A DNA stretch of 24,905 nucleotides, taken from IMG/VR virus record IMGVR_UViG_3300033273_000132, positions 1 to 24,905 of that record. One strand, 5' to 3'. Below, one piece after another: positions 832-24,814 of this stretch. Position 1 is the first letter of the stretch, and each line of letters starts with the position of its first letter. A model generated the notes under the pieces. It had not been told where the DNA came from. It saw nothing but the letters and a program-made list of their open reading frames with translations, and did not search any database. The stretch comes from a virus. Position numbers and translations under genes: made by a program.

Positions 832-1612
832 AGCTATCTCATGGGCGTTCCAGCAACGCCTCGACGACCCGACAGCGAAACTGGTCCTGATCGGGATTGC
901 AGACAAATACAACGAGGATCGCGGCTATGCCTGGCCGTCGGTCGCCGCTCTGGCTGACATGGCTGACTGCACCGAGAGGACAGTGAGCCGCAAGCTGGCC
1001 TTTCTGGAGGAGGCAAAACTGATCGCAACGATCAGGCACCCGACCAAGACAAATCGGTATTTTTTGCCCCATATGACATCCTGTCGTGACGACACCGGTG
1101 TCACCCCCGATAGGACATCAGATGTCAGGTGCTACAGGACATCAGATGTCAGCCGAACTATAATTAACGATAGTGAACAGAAAGACTCCATCAAATTGGC
1201 TTTTGATAGCTTCTGGGAAGCTGTCCCACGCAAGGTCGGCAAGAAGGCAGCCATGACTGCTTTCAAGGCGGCAGTGAAGAGCGTGAAGTCTGAGGTGCTG
1301 ATTGCTGAGATGGAGCGATATGCGAAGAAGGTCAGGTCGGACGGTACAGAGGCGCGGTTCATTGTGCATCCGACCACCTGGTTGCAGCAGGGCCGCTGGG
1401 AGGATGAGCCGGTCGTAGAGGCTAATGCGCACAGGCCTCCACCAGGACACAGGGATTGGCTGCCGGAAAGCAAGGAGGAGTTTGAGCGGGAGATCATGAG
1501 CAATGAGCTGCTGAAGAACCGGACGCTGCAATATGTCCCGCATCTTTGGCACTACGTCTTGCAGAAAGGCTGGATCAATGAGCGACCCAAACAGACAAGG
1601 ACCTTCGGATGA
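821..1612 (+). CDS. Replication initiator, lambda O / HTH_36-like
   Basis: A 263-aa protein with an N-terminal winged helix-turn-helix (about residues 35-75, with PSVAALADMA and ERTVSRKLAFLEE), a polar low-complexity linker (about 85-125), and a C-terminal block containing FWEAVPRKVGKKAA and HPTTWLQQGRWED. That C-terminal block is typical of phage initiators of the O/DnaD-like group, which bind the origin and load the host helicase. The start is TTG 821, chosen because GGAGG at 810-814 lies six bases upstream and homologues begin near this SIKAISWAF motif. The linker-coding DNA contains a phased palindrome cluster (1075-1150), the arrangement seen in lambda O. The 3' end overlaps the next gene. 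Confidence 0.8.
   Translation: MSIKAISWAFQQRLDDPTAKLVLIGIADKYNEDRGYAWPSVAALADMADCTERTVSRKLAFLEEAKLIATIRHPTKTNRYFLPHMTSCRDDTGVTPDRTSDVRCYRTSDVSRTIINDSEQKDSIKLAFDSFWEAVPRKVGKKAAMTAFKAAVKSVKSEVLIAEMERYAKKVRSDGTEARFIVHPTTWLQQGRWEDEPVVEANAHRPPPGHRDWLPESKEEFEREIMSNELLKNRTLQYVPHLWHYVLQKGWINERPKQTRTFG
1075..1174. repeat. Phased palindromic iterons plus AT-rich segment: candidate replication origin
   Basis: Three palindromes are centred near 1096.5 (GACACCGGTGTC, 1091-1102), 1120 (GACATCAGATGTC, 1114-1126) and 1144 (identical, 1138-1150), so they are phased by about 24 bp. The last two lie in 17-bp exact direct repeats (1112-1128 and 1136-1152). Two weaker inverted repeats, GACA/TGTC (1075-1085) and GTCGT/ACGAC (1083-1093), precede them. 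An AT-rich stretch follows (1156-1172), bounded by ACTAT and ATAGT. The cluster lies in the linker region of the initiator gene, as lambda iterons lie in O. The origin function is inferred. Confidence 0.65.
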
Positions 1613-2613: not shown

Positions 2614-2673
2614 AAGCATATTTGCGCATATTATGCCCAGAGGTAAATCAGTGCAAGCATATATGAGCATACT
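2614..2673. promoter_or_regulatory. Paired 19-bp operator-like repeats over the reverse promoter
   Basis: AAGCATATTTGCGCATATT (2614-2632) and AAGCATATATGAGCATACT (2655-2673) match at 15 of 19 positions, and each contains two GCATA half-sites ten bases apart. The copies are 41 bp apart, close to four helical turns. One covers the -10 of the reverse promoter and the other touches its -35. This fits binding of a dimeric repressor or activator to both. The regulator itself is not identified in the window. Confidence 0.65.
2628..2656 (-). promoter_or_regulatory. Sigma-70-type promoter of the reverse cassette
   Basis: On the minus strand, TTGCAC (2656-2651) and TAATAT (2633-2628) are separated by exactly 17 bp and closely match the -35 and -10 consensus. 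A transcript would start near 2621, about 15 bases before the strong ribosome binding site of the 40-aa membrane protein. Confidence 0.75.
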
Positions 2674-2721
2674 TGCTAAGCGGGGACGCTTTTGATATTG
2701 TTTATGCAAGAGTGAACAAGT

Positions 2722-2744
2722 GCGCCGGAAAGGGCGCTTTTTTT
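2722..2744 (+). terminator. Rho-independent terminator-like hairpin before the methyltransferase
   Basis: GCGCC (2722-2726) pairs perfectly with GGCGC (2733-2737) across a six-base loop and is followed by seven T residues (2738-2744). The stem is short but GC-only. It sits directly before the likely GTG start of the methyltransferase at 2745 and overlaps the purine-rich AAAGGG (2729-2734), which may be its ribosome binding site. It may act as a terminator or attenuator. Confidence 0.55.
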
Positions 2745-4001
2745 GTGCAAGATATCCAAGTCGAATGGCTCGATGTCACACAGGTCACGCCTTATGCCAG
2801 GAATAGCCGAACGCACAGCGACGAGCAGGTTGCTCAGGTAGCTGCAAGCATCAAAGAGTTTGGCTGGACCAATCCTATATTGCTCGACGAGGCTGGCACG
2901 ATTATCGCCGGTCATGGTCGGCTTATGGCCGCCCAGCGTCTAGGACATGAGCAGGTGCCAACGATTACGCTGGCTCACCTGACGGATGCGCAGAAACGTG
3001 CTTATGTCATCGCCGATAACAAGCTGGCCCTCAACGCAGGCTGGGACGCAGAGATGCTCGCGGTCGAGGTGGAGGAGCTATTGGATCAGGGCTTCGACCT
3101 TGATTTGACAGGCTTTGACGCGCAGGAAATCGACGCGCTGCTTGCCGACGCAAATAAGGTTGCGGAAGGGAATACTGACGAGGACTTGGTTCCAGAGGCG
3201 CCAGAGTTTCCGACCAGTGAGCTTGGCGATGTCTGGATTCTGGGTCGTCACCGTGTCGTTTGTGGTGACTGCACGGATCAAACCGCTGTCGACAAGCTTA
3301 TGCAAGGCCAGCTTGCAGACATGGTTTTCACTGATCCGCCATACAACGTCGATTACTCAGGGCGCGGCGCAAACCAGCTCGGCAAGATCAAAAATGACGC
3401 CATGTCAGATGCCGCTTTTCAGCAGTTCTGCTCAGATGTGTTCGCAAGCTATTTTAGCGTGATGAAGCCATTGGCTTGCATCTATGTTTGCCACCCTGAC
3501 AGCAAAACAGCTCCAAAAATTGCGTTTGAATCTGCTTTTGGGGATGCTTTTGAGAAGAGCAGCACGATAATTTGGGTTAAGCAGTCGGCAGGCATGGGCT
3601 GGCAAGACTATCGCGCGCAACATGAGCCTATCCTTTACGGGTGGAAAAAGGGCAGCGGAAAGCACTTTTTCTGCGGTGACCGAACCAAAACGACAGTGTG
3701 GGAAATTGGCAGAGATGTGCAAAAGGACTATGTGCATCCAACCCAAAAGCCTGTCGCGTTGGTTGAAGAGGCTATAAACAACAGCAGCAAGGGACACGAC
3801 ATCGTCCTGGACTTTTTCGGCGGGTCAGGCAGCACGCTTATAGCGGCTGAAAAGACCGGGCGTAATGCCAGGATCATTGAGCTGGACCAGAAGTATGTCG
3901 ATGTCATCGTAAAGCGGTGGCAGGACTTCACAGGGCAGGACGCAATACACGAAGAGAGTGGTGAGACCTTCAATGGCCTATCCAAGCAAAAAGACGCCTG
4001 A
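2745..4001 (+). CDS. ParB-like domain fused to a DNA N6-adenine/N4-cytosine methyltransferase
   Basis: The frame is open from TTG 2673, but GTG 2745 is preferred: it follows the hairpin and gives MQDIQVEWLDV, where homologous proteins usually start. The 418-aa product has an N-terminal ParB/sulfiredoxin-type domain (about 1-110; PYARNSRTH, GHGR at 56-59), then a beta-class methyltransferase with DPPY at 197-200 (motif IV), HPTQKP and FFGGSGST at 357-364 (motif I, AdoMet binding). The DPPY-before-FxGxG order defines the beta class and usually means N6-adenine methylation. In phages such enzymes commonly protect genome DNA from host restriction or aid packaging. No cognate nuclease is seen nearby. 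It overlaps the terminase small-subunit gene. Confidence 0.85.
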   Translation: MQDIQVEWLDVTQVTPYARNSRTHSDEQVAQVAASIKEFGWTNPILLDEAGTIIAGHGRLMAAQRLGHEQVPTITLAHLTDAQKRAYVIADNKLALNAGWDAEMLAVEVEELLDQGFDLDLTGFDAQEIDALLADANKVAEGNTDEDLVPEAPEFPTSELGDVWILGRHRVVCGDCTDQTAVDKLMQGQLADMVFTDPPYNVDYSGRGANQLGKIKNDAMSDAAFQQFCSDVFASYFSVMKPLACIYVCHPDSKTAPKIAFESAFGDAFEKSSTIIWVKQSAGMGWQDYRAQHEPILYGWKKGSGKHFFCGDRTKTTVWEIGRDVQKDYVHPTQKPVALVEEAINNSSKGHDIVLDFFGGSGSTLIAAEKTGRNARIIELDQKYVDVIVKRWQDFTGQDAIHEESGETFNGLSKQKDA

Positions 4002-15084: not shown

Positions 15085-16053
15085 ATGGCTATCCTCAAGC
15101 CGAACCTCGATCAGCTCACAGGCTCGATCGACGCATTTGTCGGCTCGTTTGATAGCGACGCCGACCTTCTACGCGCTGACTTCACAAAGGAGCCGACGCT
15201 AGAAGAGCTGGATGGTCTTGTTGCCAATTTTGATGCGCTCGACAGTTTTGGCAATGTAGACAGCCTCACTTTTGACTTTTTCTCGGTATCGGCGTCCGTC
15301 ACTGGCGCGGTGTCGGTGCAGGCACAAATCCAGTTCAGCATCCTGTTCGATGCAAGTGCTTCAGTCGCTGTTACAGAAACGGCGACTGCGCAGCGGGTGC
15401 AGTTTGTTGACGCCTCTGCTTCGGTCGCTGTCACAGAGACTGGGACTGCGCAGCGGGTGCAGTTTGTTGATGCGTCGGCGTCGGCAAGCGTCACTGCAAC
15501 CAACGCTTTCGACAGAGTGCGTGGCGTTGACGCTTCTGCTTCTGTTGCCGCGACGAGCAGCAACGACTTCGCGAGGGTGCGCGGCGTTGATGCGGCAGTC
15601 ACTGGCGCAGTGTCAATCGCGGCGACTGCTGCTTTCATTGCACGCATGGAGGCTGCGGCTTCTGTCGCCGTAACGGCAGCCAACGACTTTGGCCGTGTTC
15701 GAGGCGTCGAGGCTTCGGCCTCAGCGGCTGTTACAGAGTCGGCAAGCTGCTTGGCGGTCATATCGGCCACCGCATCAGCAGACGCTGTCCTGACGGCTTC
15801 TGGAGCCACTGTAGCCGTGTTCTCGGCCCCTGCCACCGGCACGGTCGCAGTCACCGGAACCGCTGTTGGCAAAATACCTGGCGAGGACTGGTCTGATGTC
15901 ACCGCAGGCGGCGAAACATGGGCAGTGCAGGAGCCAGATGGCGAGGCTTGGACGGTGCAAGCCGAAGACGGCGAAACATGGACAGACATCACGGCTGGCT
16001 CAGAGGTTTGGGCAAACATGGCCGTCAGTGAAGGGACTTGGCTGAGGCAATGA
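15085..16053 (+). CDS. Tandem-repeat virion protein with a Trp ladder (322 aa)
   Basis: After a unique N-terminus (1-68; LDQLTGSIDAFVGSFDSD), residues 69 to about 262 are nine to ten tandem 20-residue units of the form DASASVAVTETxTAQRVQFV, beta-rich and almost free of lysine. The last 54 residues then change to a strict decapeptide pattern with Trp at 269, 279, 289, 299, 309 and 319. The ATG follows AAGGAG. It lies between adaptor/tail genes and the hub, so it is most likely a fibrous tail or decoration component. No named family is recognised. The repeats point to a beta-solenoid or similar extended fold. Confidence 0.75.
   Translation: MAILKPNLDQLTGSIDAFVGSFDSDADLLRADFTKEPTLEELDGLVANFDALDSFGNVDSLTFDFFSVSASVTGAVSVQAQIQFSILFDASASVAVTETATAQRVQFVDASASVAVTETGTAQRVQFVDASASASVTATNAFDRVRGVDASASVAATSSNDFARVRGVDAAVTGAVSIAATAAFIARMEAAASVAVTAANDFGRVRGVEASASAAVTESASCLAVISATASADAVLTASGATVAVFSAPATGTVAVTGTAVGKIPGEDWSDVTAGGETWAVQEPDGEAWTVQAEDGETWTDITAGSEVWANMAVSEGTWLRQ
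15289..15870 (+). repeat. 60-bp (20-aa) tandem repeats
   Basis: Nine to ten diverged units, each 20 codons, lie within the 322-aa protein. Two adjacent copies (residues 89-108 and 109-128) differ by a single amino acid and are near-identical at DNA level, for example in GCGCAGCGGGTGCAGTTTGT. Other copies replace QRVQFV by ARVRGV or GRVRGV. Confidence 0.85.
15889..16041 (+). repeat. Decapeptide tryptophan repeat
   Basis: Six Trp codons lie exactly 30 bases apart (first at 15889-15891, last at 16039-16041). Each unit resembles W-x(6)-G-E-T/A-W or close variants, such as EDGETW and AGGETW. Confidence 0.85.
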
Positions 16054-22006: not shown

Positions 22007-23155
22007 ATGCCTAAGAACAGCATCCGAGACTACAGCGCGACAGCATCATCAAACACTGACATTCAGTCGGTGGATATCGATGAGAACTGCGCCGCAAGTG
22101 GGATCAACAACGCCATTCGGGAAGTCATGGCCGACCTTAAGGATGTCAGCACCGGCGCGGTCGCTCTTGAGACGCCTAGCGCCGATCAACTCAACGTGGA
22201 TAACATCCGCATCGACGGCAACACCATCAGCAGCACCGACACAAACGGCGACATTACCCTCGACCCGGATGGCACGGGCGATGTGATTGTCGCGTCGGGC
22301 AACCTGCTTCATCAGCGCACCAGCAACACCATCAGCGGCACCAGCGTGAACAAAATGACGCTTGGCGATGGCACTGGGCAGTATGGCGTAATTGTGGATG
22401 TAGGCAGCGGCAGTGGATACTACGGCTTTGCCAAAGGCGGCACATACAATTCACGCATCCGCTACGACTACACCAGCGACTTTATGGCGTTTGATGTCAA
22501 CGGTGCAGAACGTATGCGTATAGATGCCAGCGGTGACATGAAGTATCCCGGCACTAATGCTCAGTCTATCATGACTAACGCCCACAGCGGTGCAGCAGGT
22601 GCCACCAACCGTAGGGGCATGATTCAATCTGGCGATCAGCTTGTTTTCCACACTGGCAGTGGAACCGCAAATATTGACGCAATAAAACTATATACTGGTT
22701 TTTCTGGGCAAGCTGGCTCGACATTCGCCGCTCTACAGTTTTTGGTGCAAAGCGACGGTGATGTTCAAAACCGCAACAACTCATACGGCTCCACTTCAGA
22801 CTTAAAACTAAAGCAGGACATCGTTGCGGCCAGTTCGCAGTGGGATGATATCAAGGCGGTACAGGTCAAGAATTATCGTTTCAAAGACCAAGTGGCCAAT
22901 CTCGGAGATGACAACGCGCCAACGATGTTGGGCGTGGTCGCACAAGACCTCGAATCCGCTGGCATGAGTGGCCTGGTAATAGACAAACCAGACATCGTTG
23001 ATGGTGTGGATTTAGGCACGACAACGAAAAGCGTCAAATACAGTGTCCTCTACATGAAGGCCATCAAAGCTTTACAAGAAGCTATGGACCGCATTGAGAC
23101 CCTTGAAACCGAAATGACTGCGCTCAAGGCCCGCGTAACCGCACTGGAGGCATAA
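22007..23155 (+). CDS. Tail fibre with S74 self-cleaving C-terminal chaperone (382 aa)
   Basis: The N-terminal 48 residues (RDYSATASSNTDI, CAASGINNAIREVMADLKD) form an anchoring domain also seen in the next gene. The middle is a beta-rich shaft (NVDNIRIDGNTIS, GDITLDPDGTGDVIVASGN, MRIDASGD). From residue 264 the Peptidase_S74 domain begins: S264-D-L-K-L-K269 has the Ser/Lys dyad spacing known from endosialidase-type chaperones, followed by YRFKDQ and LGVVAQDLE. A C-terminal coiled coil (residues 350-382) ends the domain. Self-cleavage before S264 would release a trimeric mature fibre. It starts directly after the previous stop. Confidence 0.88.
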   Translation: MPKNSIRDYSATASSNTDIQSVDIDENCAASGINNAIREVMADLKDVSTGAVALETPSADQLNVDNIRIDGNTISSTDTNGDITLDPDGTGDVIVASGNLLHQRTSNTISGTSVNKMTLGDGTGQYGVIVDVGSGSGYYGFAKGGTYNSRIRYDYTSDFMAFDVNGAERMRIDASGDMKYPGTNAQSIMTNAHSGAAGATNRRGMIQSGDQLVFHTGSGTANIDAIKLYTGFSGQAGSTFAALQFLVQSDGDVQNRNNSYGSTSDLKLKQDIVAASSQWDDIKAVQVKNYRFKDQVANLGDDNAPTMLGVVAQDLESAGMSGLVIDKPDIVDGVDLGTTTKSVKYSVLYMKAIKALQEAMDRIETLETEMTALKARVTALEA

Positions 23156-23158
23156 CGA

Positions 23159-23665
23159 ATGGCCCGCGACAAACTCACCGAATATGACAGCACCGCCGCA
23201 AACAACACTGTCTGCGGCGGTGTGAACATTGCAGAAAATTCTGCTCTGCCAAGTGACATGAACAACTTTGCGCGTGAGATCATGTCTCATCTGAAGGAGT
23301 TTGCGGATGGCACAAATGGCATCAACGTCCTCAGCCTGGCAGATGATGACGCAAGCGCGGCGATTAAGTTCCAGGCACCGTCTGCGGTCACGGCAACAGT
23401 GACTTTTACGTTGCCCGATGGTGACGGAACCAGCGGCCAGACGCTCATCACTGATGGCTCTGGCACATTGTCATGGGGCGCGGGCGGCGGTGGCTCTTTC
23501 TTGGGTGACAGTGGCGGTGGCACGGCTGACATCATTCGGGTCCATGAGGCGCAGCTCGATACCAGCGTGACTGTTGCGACCAACACAAACGGCCTTGCTG
23601 CCGGTCCGCTAACTGTAGCCAGCGGCGTAACGCTGACCGTCAATGGGAGCTTGGTGATAGCATGA
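23159..23665 (+). CDS. Second short fibre sharing the anchoring domain (168 aa)
   Basis: The N-terminus (EYDSTAANNTVCGGVNIAENSALPSDMNNFAREIMSHLKEF) aligns with the first 48 residues of the S74 fibre in length and key positions, so both probably dock at the same site on the tail. A beta-rich FTLPDGDGTSGQTL segment and a Gly/Ser stretch follow, ending in LTVASGVTLTVNGSLVIA, a cap-like repeat typical of phage fibres. No chaperone domain is present. The next gene starts at ATGA overlap 23662-23665. Confidence 0.7.
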   Translation: MARDKLTEYDSTAANNTVCGGVNIAENSALPSDMNNFAREIMSHLKEFADGTNGINVLSLADDDASAAIKFQAPSAVTATVTFTLPDGDGTSGQTLITDGSGTLSWGAGGGGSFLGDSGGGTADIIRVHEAQLDTSVTVATNTNGLAAGPLTVASGVTLTVNGSLVIA

Positions 23666-24048
23666 GTACCTTAAAGGCAGACACAATCCAGAACACCTCT
23701 GGCGGTGCGGCTACGCTGACTAGTCAGGCGGCGGCGAAAGTTTTTTGCCAGACTAATCAAAGGGACTTTGCGGCACAGGCAGGGAACAGCCTGAACATCT
23801 CCAGCGTAAGTGACGGCGGTGCGGGAGATATTGTTCACGCATTCACCAACAACTTCGGCGGAGCTTTGACCTACAGCATCGTGCTGACTTGTGGTGGCGG
23901 CTCTAGTGATAGCGCACCACGATTTGCTGGCCCTGCTGACAATGTTGACCCAACTACGGGTGGCTTCACGTTTAAGAACGCTAATTCGTCTGGTACGGCT
24001 CAAGATAAAGTTATCAACTCTACAGCCTGTTTCGGAGACCTCGCATGA
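23662..24048 (+). CDS. Small fibre cassette 1 (128 aa)
   Basis: Begins MSTLKADTIQNTSGGAATLT and ends CFGDLA. The middle contains NSLNISSVSDGGAGDIVHAF, a version of a domain seen in many phage fibre proteins (S-L-N-x-S-S-x-x-D-x-x-x-G-D). Two other cassettes follow with the same plan. The start overlaps the previous stop (ATGA) and the stop overlaps the next start. It is probably a receptor-binding or accessory fibre subunit. Cysteines at 29, 77 and 123 may be paired. Confidence 0.7.
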   Translation: MSTLKADTIQNTSGGAATLTSQAAAKVFCQTNQRDFAAQAGNSLNISSVSDGGAGDIVHAFTNNFGGALTYSIVLTCGGGSSDSAPRFAGPADNVDPTTGGFTFKNANSSGTAQDKVINSTACFGDLA

Positions 24049-24810
24049 GTACCATCATCGCAGACAACCTGACCGGCAAGACCACCGCTGGAAATGTGAC
24101 GGTCACCTCTGAGGGCGGCTCGGCGACGTTCCAGTTGCAGAAGGGTATCACCAAAGCGTGGTCCAAGTTGGACGGCACTGGCACCATTAGCTTCTTTGGG
24201 TCTTATGCTCACAGTTCAGTAACAGACAACGGGACCGGAGATTACACGCACACAATGTCCGCCGTGATGGCTGATGTGAATTATTCGCACACGCTTACTG
24301 CCAGGACGTACTTTGCGGTTCTGCGTGACGGCAACATTCCGACGACGACAACCTACAGGGTGGGCCACATCTACAACGATGGCTCTGGCGGCAACTTCGG
24401 TTATTCCGATGGCAAGTATATCTCCACCAACATCACAGGAGACCTCGCGTAATGGCCGGAACAATAGTAGCAGACACCCTGACCCACAGCACCGCCGGTT
24501 CGCTGACCACCGACTATGTGGTGAATGGCAGCGCGAAGGCTCACTTTAACTACGACCAGACAGGCACGCCAGCTATCGGTGAGAGCCTAAACGTCAGCAG
24601 CATTTCGGACAATTCGACAGGAAACTTCACGGCAAACTGGTCTAACAGCATGAGCCAGACAGACTATTCTGGTGCAGGGATTACCAGAAATAAGCATTTG
24701 CAGTTTGACGCAAACCTGTCTGCAAGCAGCGCACAATTTGCTTCTGAGACCGGTGCCAACGCTAGGTCAGACCAAGTTGACAATTTGGCTGTTGTTTTCG
24801 GAGGCCTCGC
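24034..24810 (+). repeat. Conserved fibre-gene junction repeats
   Basis: GGAGACCTCGC occurs at 24034-24044 and 24438-24448, and GGAGGCCTCGC at 24800-24810, at the 3' end of each small fibre gene. The element encodes the conserved C-terminal G-D/G-L-A and places GGAG at ribosome-binding distance from the next start codon. Confidence 0.75.
24045..24452 (+). CDS. Small fibre cassette 2 (135 aa)
   Basis: Begins MSTIIADNLTGKTTAGNVTV and ends ITGDLA. The core SSVTDNGTGDYTHTMSAVM is the best match in this window to the shared fibre domain. The start overlaps cassette 1 by ATGA, and the start codon plus AGTACC repeats that of cassette 1 at DNA level. The stop and following start form TAATG. The sequence differs strongly from its neighbours between the conserved ends, as expected for a receptor-contacting part. 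Confidence 0.7.
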   Translation: MSTIIADNLTGKTTAGNVTVTSEGGSATFQLQKGITKAWSKLDGTGTISFFGSYAHSSVTDNGTGDYTHTMSAVMADVNYSHTLTARTYFAVLRDGNIPTTTTYRVGHIYNDGSGGNFGYSDGKYISTNITGDLA

Positions 24811-24814
24811 ATGA
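24452..24814 (+). CDS. Small fibre cassette 3 (120 aa)
   Basis: Begins MAGTIVADTLTHSTAGSLTT and ends VFGGLA. Contains ESLNVSSISDNSTGNFTANW, the third version of the shared domain, after a VVNGSAKAHFNYDQ segment that I have seen in marine phage fibre proteins. It overlaps cassette 2 by one base and the next gene by ATGA at 24811-24814. Confidence 0.7.
   Translation: MAGTIVADTLTHSTAGSLTTDYVVNGSAKAHFNYDQTGTPAIGESLNVSSISDNSTGNFTANWSNSMSQTDYSGAGITRNKHLQFDANLSASSAQFASETGANARSDQVDNLAVVFGGLA

Follow-up and report, generated by a model that had tools for sequence, protein, structure and literature searches.

Replication origins lying within genes are established, phage lambda and oriL of phage SPP1 being known cases. 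For lambdoid phages, both the layout of the origin and the requirement for the iterons and the AT-rich tract have been described (PMC7466680). In lambda itself, the annotated iterons fall in the O gene at nt 349-433, with start-to-start spacings of 20, 24 and 23. In SPP1, oriL is located within gene 38, coding for the replisome organizer gp38 (G38P), and includes direct repeats bound by the initiator together with an AT-rich unwinding element (PMC6316719). In addition, the DNA-binding domain of RepA from PLE, a V. cholerae satellite, covaries with the semi-palindromic repeats of its origin, the two acting as a module (PMC8263062).

The DNA analysed here, referred to as the window, is the entire IMG/VR record IMGVR_UViG_3300033273_000132, 24,905 bases long, classed as linear and probably a fragment; its structural genes are of the tailed phage type, with an SU10-type portal and an Sf6-type small terminase. 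Positions 821-1612 of the plus strand code for a phage replication initiator of 263 amino acids, with a TTG start, composed of an N-terminal winged helix (HTH_36), a disordered linker and a C-terminal helical domain. The protein matches HTH_36 (E=5e-8, 33 bits against a curated Pfam cut-off of 25) and phrog_270, replication initiation protein (E=6.5e-38), and several of its further PHROG matches are labelled 'replication initiation O-like'; it is a member of the HTH_36-type phage replication initiators (PHROG 270). In an AlphaFold2 model, whose mean pLDDT of 64 is only fair, the winged helix occupies residues 1-81, with the predicted recognition helix at codons 52-64 (ERTVSRK..., positions 974-1012, plus strand), and residues 72-120 fall below pLDDT 50. 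The C-terminal part (positions 1193-1609, plus strand) is helical in this model; it is a candidate for the contact with the helicase or its loader, and is conserved among phage initiators from other hosts. Searching the PDB with the initiator returned chance matches only by sequence and generic winged helices, none of them significant, by fold. A scan of genome contigs for initiator relatives retrieved three distant actinobacterial prophage-like loci only, and no host for the window.

Other genes of the window show features of their own. The gene at 1533-2078 overlaps the 3' end of the initiator gene and has a sub-threshold match to DUF6456; the one at 2673-4001 codes for a DNA methyltransferase with a ParB-like domain fused N-terminally, and that at 15085-16053 for a protein carrying internal repeats of the type DASASVAVTET...QRVQFV. 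Three consecutive genes at 23662-24048, 24045-24452 and 24452-24814 encode similar-looking proteins of 120-135 amino acids, starting with MSTLKADTIQ, MSTIIADNLT and MAGTIVADTL; these may be tandem paralogues, either of a tail protein or of a receptor-binding protein.

Within the DNA encoding the disordered stretch of the initiator lies an array of palindromes. The preliminary description of this sequence had listed three of them, two identical 13-mers and a 12-mer, phased by about 24 bp: all three are present and perfect, with centres 23.5 and 24 bp apart, but a fourth, degenerate site at 1075-1085 had been missed. Specifically, iteron 1 is this degenerate palindrome, GACATCCTGTC (centre 1080), kept in the group-1 relatives introduced below as GACATCCTGTC, GACAAATTGTC and GACAGAATGTC. 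Iteron 2 is the perfect 12-mer GACACCGGTGTC at 1091-1102 (centre 1096.5), read in frame 1 as D-T-G-V, while iterons 3 and 4 are two copies of the perfect 13-mer GACATCAGATGTC, at 1114-1126 (centre 1120) and 1138-1150 (centre 1144), both read in frame 3 as T-S-D-V. These four sites of the linker-coding stretch are of the GACA...TGTC type, with the proposed form GACA(Y)C-N-G(R)TGTC, and successive centres are spaced by 16.5, 23.5 and 24 bp. A composite palindrome, TGTCGTGACGACA at 1082-1094, was not counted as a further site, since it arises only from the half-sites of iterons 1 and 2 that face each other. Searching the whole window for GACAYCNGRTGTC with at most one mismatch gave no other occurrence.

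The array amounts to four palindromes with 6-bp arms in at most 60 bp. In Markov-simulated windows, the largest palindrome cluster counted one or two members in 58 out of 60 cases, three in one and four in one. When the protein was kept fixed and synonymous codons were shuffled, four palindromes were obtained in 0/20000 permutations and in 1/20000 usage draws, and both identical 13-mers in 3/20000 and 0/20000, respectively. The palindromes exceed chance, therefore, even with the protein sequence fixed. This bears on a first alternative, namely that selection acted on the peptide, and that a repetitive, low-complexity linker is palindromic in its DNA by accident. The repeated RTSDV peptide remarked upon at the outset does occur twice, at residues 98-102 and 106-110, and low complexity is common in linkers; against this explanation, the signal is lost on synonymous shuffling.

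Group 1 consists of the 18 marine IMG/VR relatives that cover the array region (L001-L018). The array is found at the same position in 18/18 of them, and at least three GACA..TGTC sites are present in each of the 13 relatives tallied. Nine representatives were compared pairwise in a codon alignment, considering the codons of shared residues: synonymous codon identity, expected at about 36%, was 0.85 within columns 85-116 and 0.46 in the remaining columns. Over columns 85-120, the excess above expectation was 0.50, compared to at most 0.18 for any non-overlapping window, and it was matched by 0/20000 random 36-column sets. Amino-acid identity in the codon alignment of the relatives was 0.47 in the linker versus 0.76 in the DNA-binding domain. 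In addition, one relative, L016, carries the identical 13-mer GACACCAGATGTC in two frames, coding for D-T-R-C at gene nt 271 and for T-P-D-V at nt 318. Because synonymous identity peaks at the sites, the peptide drifts and L016 makes use of two frames, we conclude that the iteron array is conserved as DNA and not as peptide. The proposal that the DNA signal took precedence over the protein thus found support in the alignment suggested for checking it, in which the palindromes keep their bases while the linker changes. With synonymous codons frozen exactly at the sites while amino acids drift, the same DNA read in different frames, and the outcome of the synonymous shuffles, the peptide-repeat explanation was rejected, and we give it a negligible probability.

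Directly downstream of iteron 4, a 50-nt tract (1151-1200, plus strand), conserved at synonymous sites, represents a candidate unwinding element. The AT-rich segment already pointed out after the palindromes is evident here, as the GC content over 1140-1219 is 0.33-0.40, against about 0.55 in the surroundings. Palindromic iterons placed mid-gene, where the initiator gene encodes the linker, and followed by an AT-rich tract, are likewise the layout of ori-lambda, and the lambda iterons occupy the corresponding place in their gene with a comparable phasing, so that the likeness to the lambda O layout first drawn from the window holds. Differently from lambda, the iteron sequences are others, and while O is a PF04492 protein (match 6e-36), the window protein has no PF04492 match and carries HTH_36 instead. 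A profile comparison (hhalign) of the window family with single lambda O or TP901-1 Rep sequences gave no similarity, and no lambda P homologue was identified beside the window initiator. Judging by anatomy and conservation, the window array would work like ori-lambda, with a protein outside PF04492 (Phage_rep_O). By their descriptions, SPP1 oriL shares with the window the repeats and the AT-rich element inside the initiator gene, whereas SPP1 differs in having oriR as an additional origin and in encoding a loader and a helicase of its own (gp39, gp40). The replication genes of lactococcal P335 phages (BK5-T ORF49, phi31 Orf269) resemble the window gene in their homologous C-domain and linker repeats, and in BK5-T also in HTH_36; unlike in the window, the repeats reach greater lengths (about 40 nt for BK5-T) and the region is far more AT-rich, and the proteins are only about 26-33% identical to the window protein.

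All together, these data support well a lambda-like reading of the array, and we consider it very probable that this segment is the replication origin of the phage, with initiator dimers on the iterons, an AT-rich tract that opens and a recruited helicase. Since intragenic origins are established, the window origin would join a known kind. In the mechanism that we propose, dimers of the N-terminal winged helix of the initiator would bind the four palindromes coded in its own disordered linker; the assembled complex would then open the adjoining AT-rich tract (about 1151-1200), where AAC-type boxes recur every 10 bp, and the replicative helicase or its loader would be brought in by the C-terminal domain. 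For binding, melting, helicase loading and origin activity, we infer these steps from lambda and SPP1. Along the 24.9-kb fragment, the GC skew climbs without turning clearly, and decides nothing. C72C1, a complete relative, has its skew minimum at 24.36 kb, about 3.3 kb from the repeats; this minimum is confounded, because it coincides with the point at which transcription diverges (24.35/24.45 kb).

Palindromes read by a winged-helix protein would fit an operator equally well, and the known part of the genome is 24.9 kb only. On this alternative, the initiator would bind the array so as to repress or stall transcription of the operon to which it belongs, with the origin located elsewhere. We regard this as unlikely: the array is in the middle of the gene, about 255 nt into it, instead of at a promoter; a conserved AT-rich tract comes right after it; the same intragenic place is kept among phages of many hosts; and the proven lambda origin has the same layout. 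Autorepression, for its part, could coexist with origin function.

Moving to the wider initiator family, distant relatives carry unrelated repeat sequences at the same gene position. Specifically, the repeats are of GAAGCAgtTGCTTC types in L022-L025, GACACAGCTCTGTC in L028-L033, GGTGTCActcTGACACC in L047-L051, GGTGACAGAGAGTCACC in Vibrio phage D273, AAACCCGGAA in EBPR podovirus 2 and GGGGTGAAC in Arthrobacter phages, and the record of Lactococcus phage BK5-T has an annotated repeat_region within the initiator gene. At least five repeat pairs were detected in 128 of 135 dereplicated initiators, and 90% of all 135 outscored their synonymous shuffles, at 1/200 or better. Despite the variety of repeat sequences, repeat centres lie within gene nt 230-460 in 94.5% of the 128 repeat-bearing initiators, and the place of the array is constant, between the DNA-binding domain and the C-domain. 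Under the same scan, lambda O passes (18 pairs, 0/500), while the second positive control, TP901-1 rep, is weak (75/500 shuffles); the other genes of the window generally fail, with weak signals in the portal gene and in the gene at 22007-23155. A hold-out search of actinobacterial genomes yielded 11 new initiators, all of which pass (0/200 each); the EBPR podovirus 2 initiator, used as query, found no relatives among viral contigs. We propose linker-coded repeats as a trait of the HTH_36-type initiator family. As a separate observation, the IMG/VR contigs carrying many of the Microbacterium-type initiator relatives (loci L170-L249) measure only about 15-18 kb; they may represent a class of small actinobacterial phages or of phage satellites.

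Some phages carry sites for other DNA transactions within genes, an example being the pac site of P22, and in the window the initiator gene is followed, about 2.3 kb downstream, by a terminase small subunit gene. Both facts would suit an array serving packaging (pac), site-specific recombination or copy-number control instead of initiation. The repeats, however, accompany the initiator and not the terminase in phages of differing gene order, for instance BK5-T and those of Vibrio, Arthrobacter and Gordonia, and they covary with the initiator recognition helix, as detailed below, which makes such a role very improbable in our judgement.

If the iterons are read by the initiator's own winged helix, the residues facing DNA should best predict the iteron sequence. 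Across 130 proteins, columns 57, 53 and 56 covaried best with the iteron sequence after regression on overall identity, and column 54 likewise scored high. In each of three disjoint clades, 0/2000 label permutations attained the margin of the set 53/54/56/57 over other columns, the set having been picked after the first scan and the permutation tests removing phylogeny only in part. Among Arg53 proteins, GTGAA repeats were found in 8/11 with Ser, Asn or Thr at position 57 versus 1/55 with Arg57; for GTGTCG repeats, the figures were 14/23 with Lys57 versus 4/55 with Arg57. In the hold-out set, this residue-57 code holds for the Arg57 proteins L254, L257 and L258 and fails in L253, L259, L263 and others; because of these failures, the code is a partial one.

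A comparable indication is given by chimeric pairs. L032 and L047, which have different iterons, are 92% identical in the C-domain and 44% in the DNA-binding domain; L028 and L031, 80% identical in the DNA-binding domain and 38% in the C-domain, have the same repeat type. In these comparisons, recombinants switch repeats along with the DNA-binding domain. The groups L031-L033 and L047-L051 as a whole combine near-identical C-domains with different DNA-binding domains and iterons; these are naturally occurring module swaps, joined close to the AT-rich tract. Part of the covariation is explained by physical linkage and common ancestry, given that the repeats lie next to the DNA-binding domain. 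The joint variation of DNA-binding domain and repeats is a likeness to PLE RepA, from which the window departs in that PLE has its origin between genes and that RepA_N is a different domain. In conclusion, the sequences themselves display the site array, its conservation as DNA regardless of peptide and frame, its fixed place and its covariation with the helix; the lambda-like intragenic origin of the preliminary description is sustained as to layout, DNA conservation and, in three clades, helix covariation, its function as an origin being the part that we infer.

The AT-rich tract of the window contains two AACNRT boxes on the plus strand, AACTAT at 1156-1161 and AACGAT at 1166-1171, 10 bp apart, and a further 10 bp downstream a degenerate third box, AACAGA at 1176-1181 (plus strand), whose position is occupied by a full AACNRT box in relatives such as L007 and L010. 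In many family members such boxes are found immediately 3' of the iterons, on the coding strand only, in all three reading frames and mostly spaced by 9-13 nt, 11 being the commonest. They reach up to about four times the level of synonymous shuffles, with the motif having been spotted on the same sequences used for its counting. AACNRT is rare in the Vibrio-type clade (at least two boxes in 1/27), and 4/11 hold-out initiator genes have at least two boxes. We consider the phased AACNRT array, perhaps an element for unwinding or strand capture, as a lead and not as a result.

By combining the two elements, a broader reading can be formulated, to which we give slightly better than even chances: in this large family, distributed among phages and prophages of many hosts, the origin would almost always lie within the initiator linker, and would consist of helix-matched iterons plus a constant, strand-specific AACNRT array with 9-13 nt phasing. 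The pairs Ser/Asn/Thr57-GTGAA, Lys57-GTGTCG and Arg57-TGAC would be examples of the diversification of the iterons with the helix. Three points may be new, namely how widely the linker-origin rule applies, the covariation with the recognition helix, and the AACNRT array; no description of them was found in titles and abstracts of the open-access literature.

In conclusion, a probable origin has been placed in an uncultured marine phage from sequence alone, and the lambda arrangement, in which the binding site lies within the gene of its own binder, would recur in initiators without detectable similarity to lambda O. The phased AACNRT array provides a new candidate for a melting element that is open to testing. 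If the two-part reading is true, both origin and binding specificity would be readable from one gene, and the family would offer a naturally occurring data set from which to work out a protein-DNA recognition code. Hundreds of natural protein-site pairs are available, since the iterons lie beside the recognition helix and the two diversify together; these pairs could be used to study how winged helices choose their DNA, to predict phage origins and to build orthogonal replicons.
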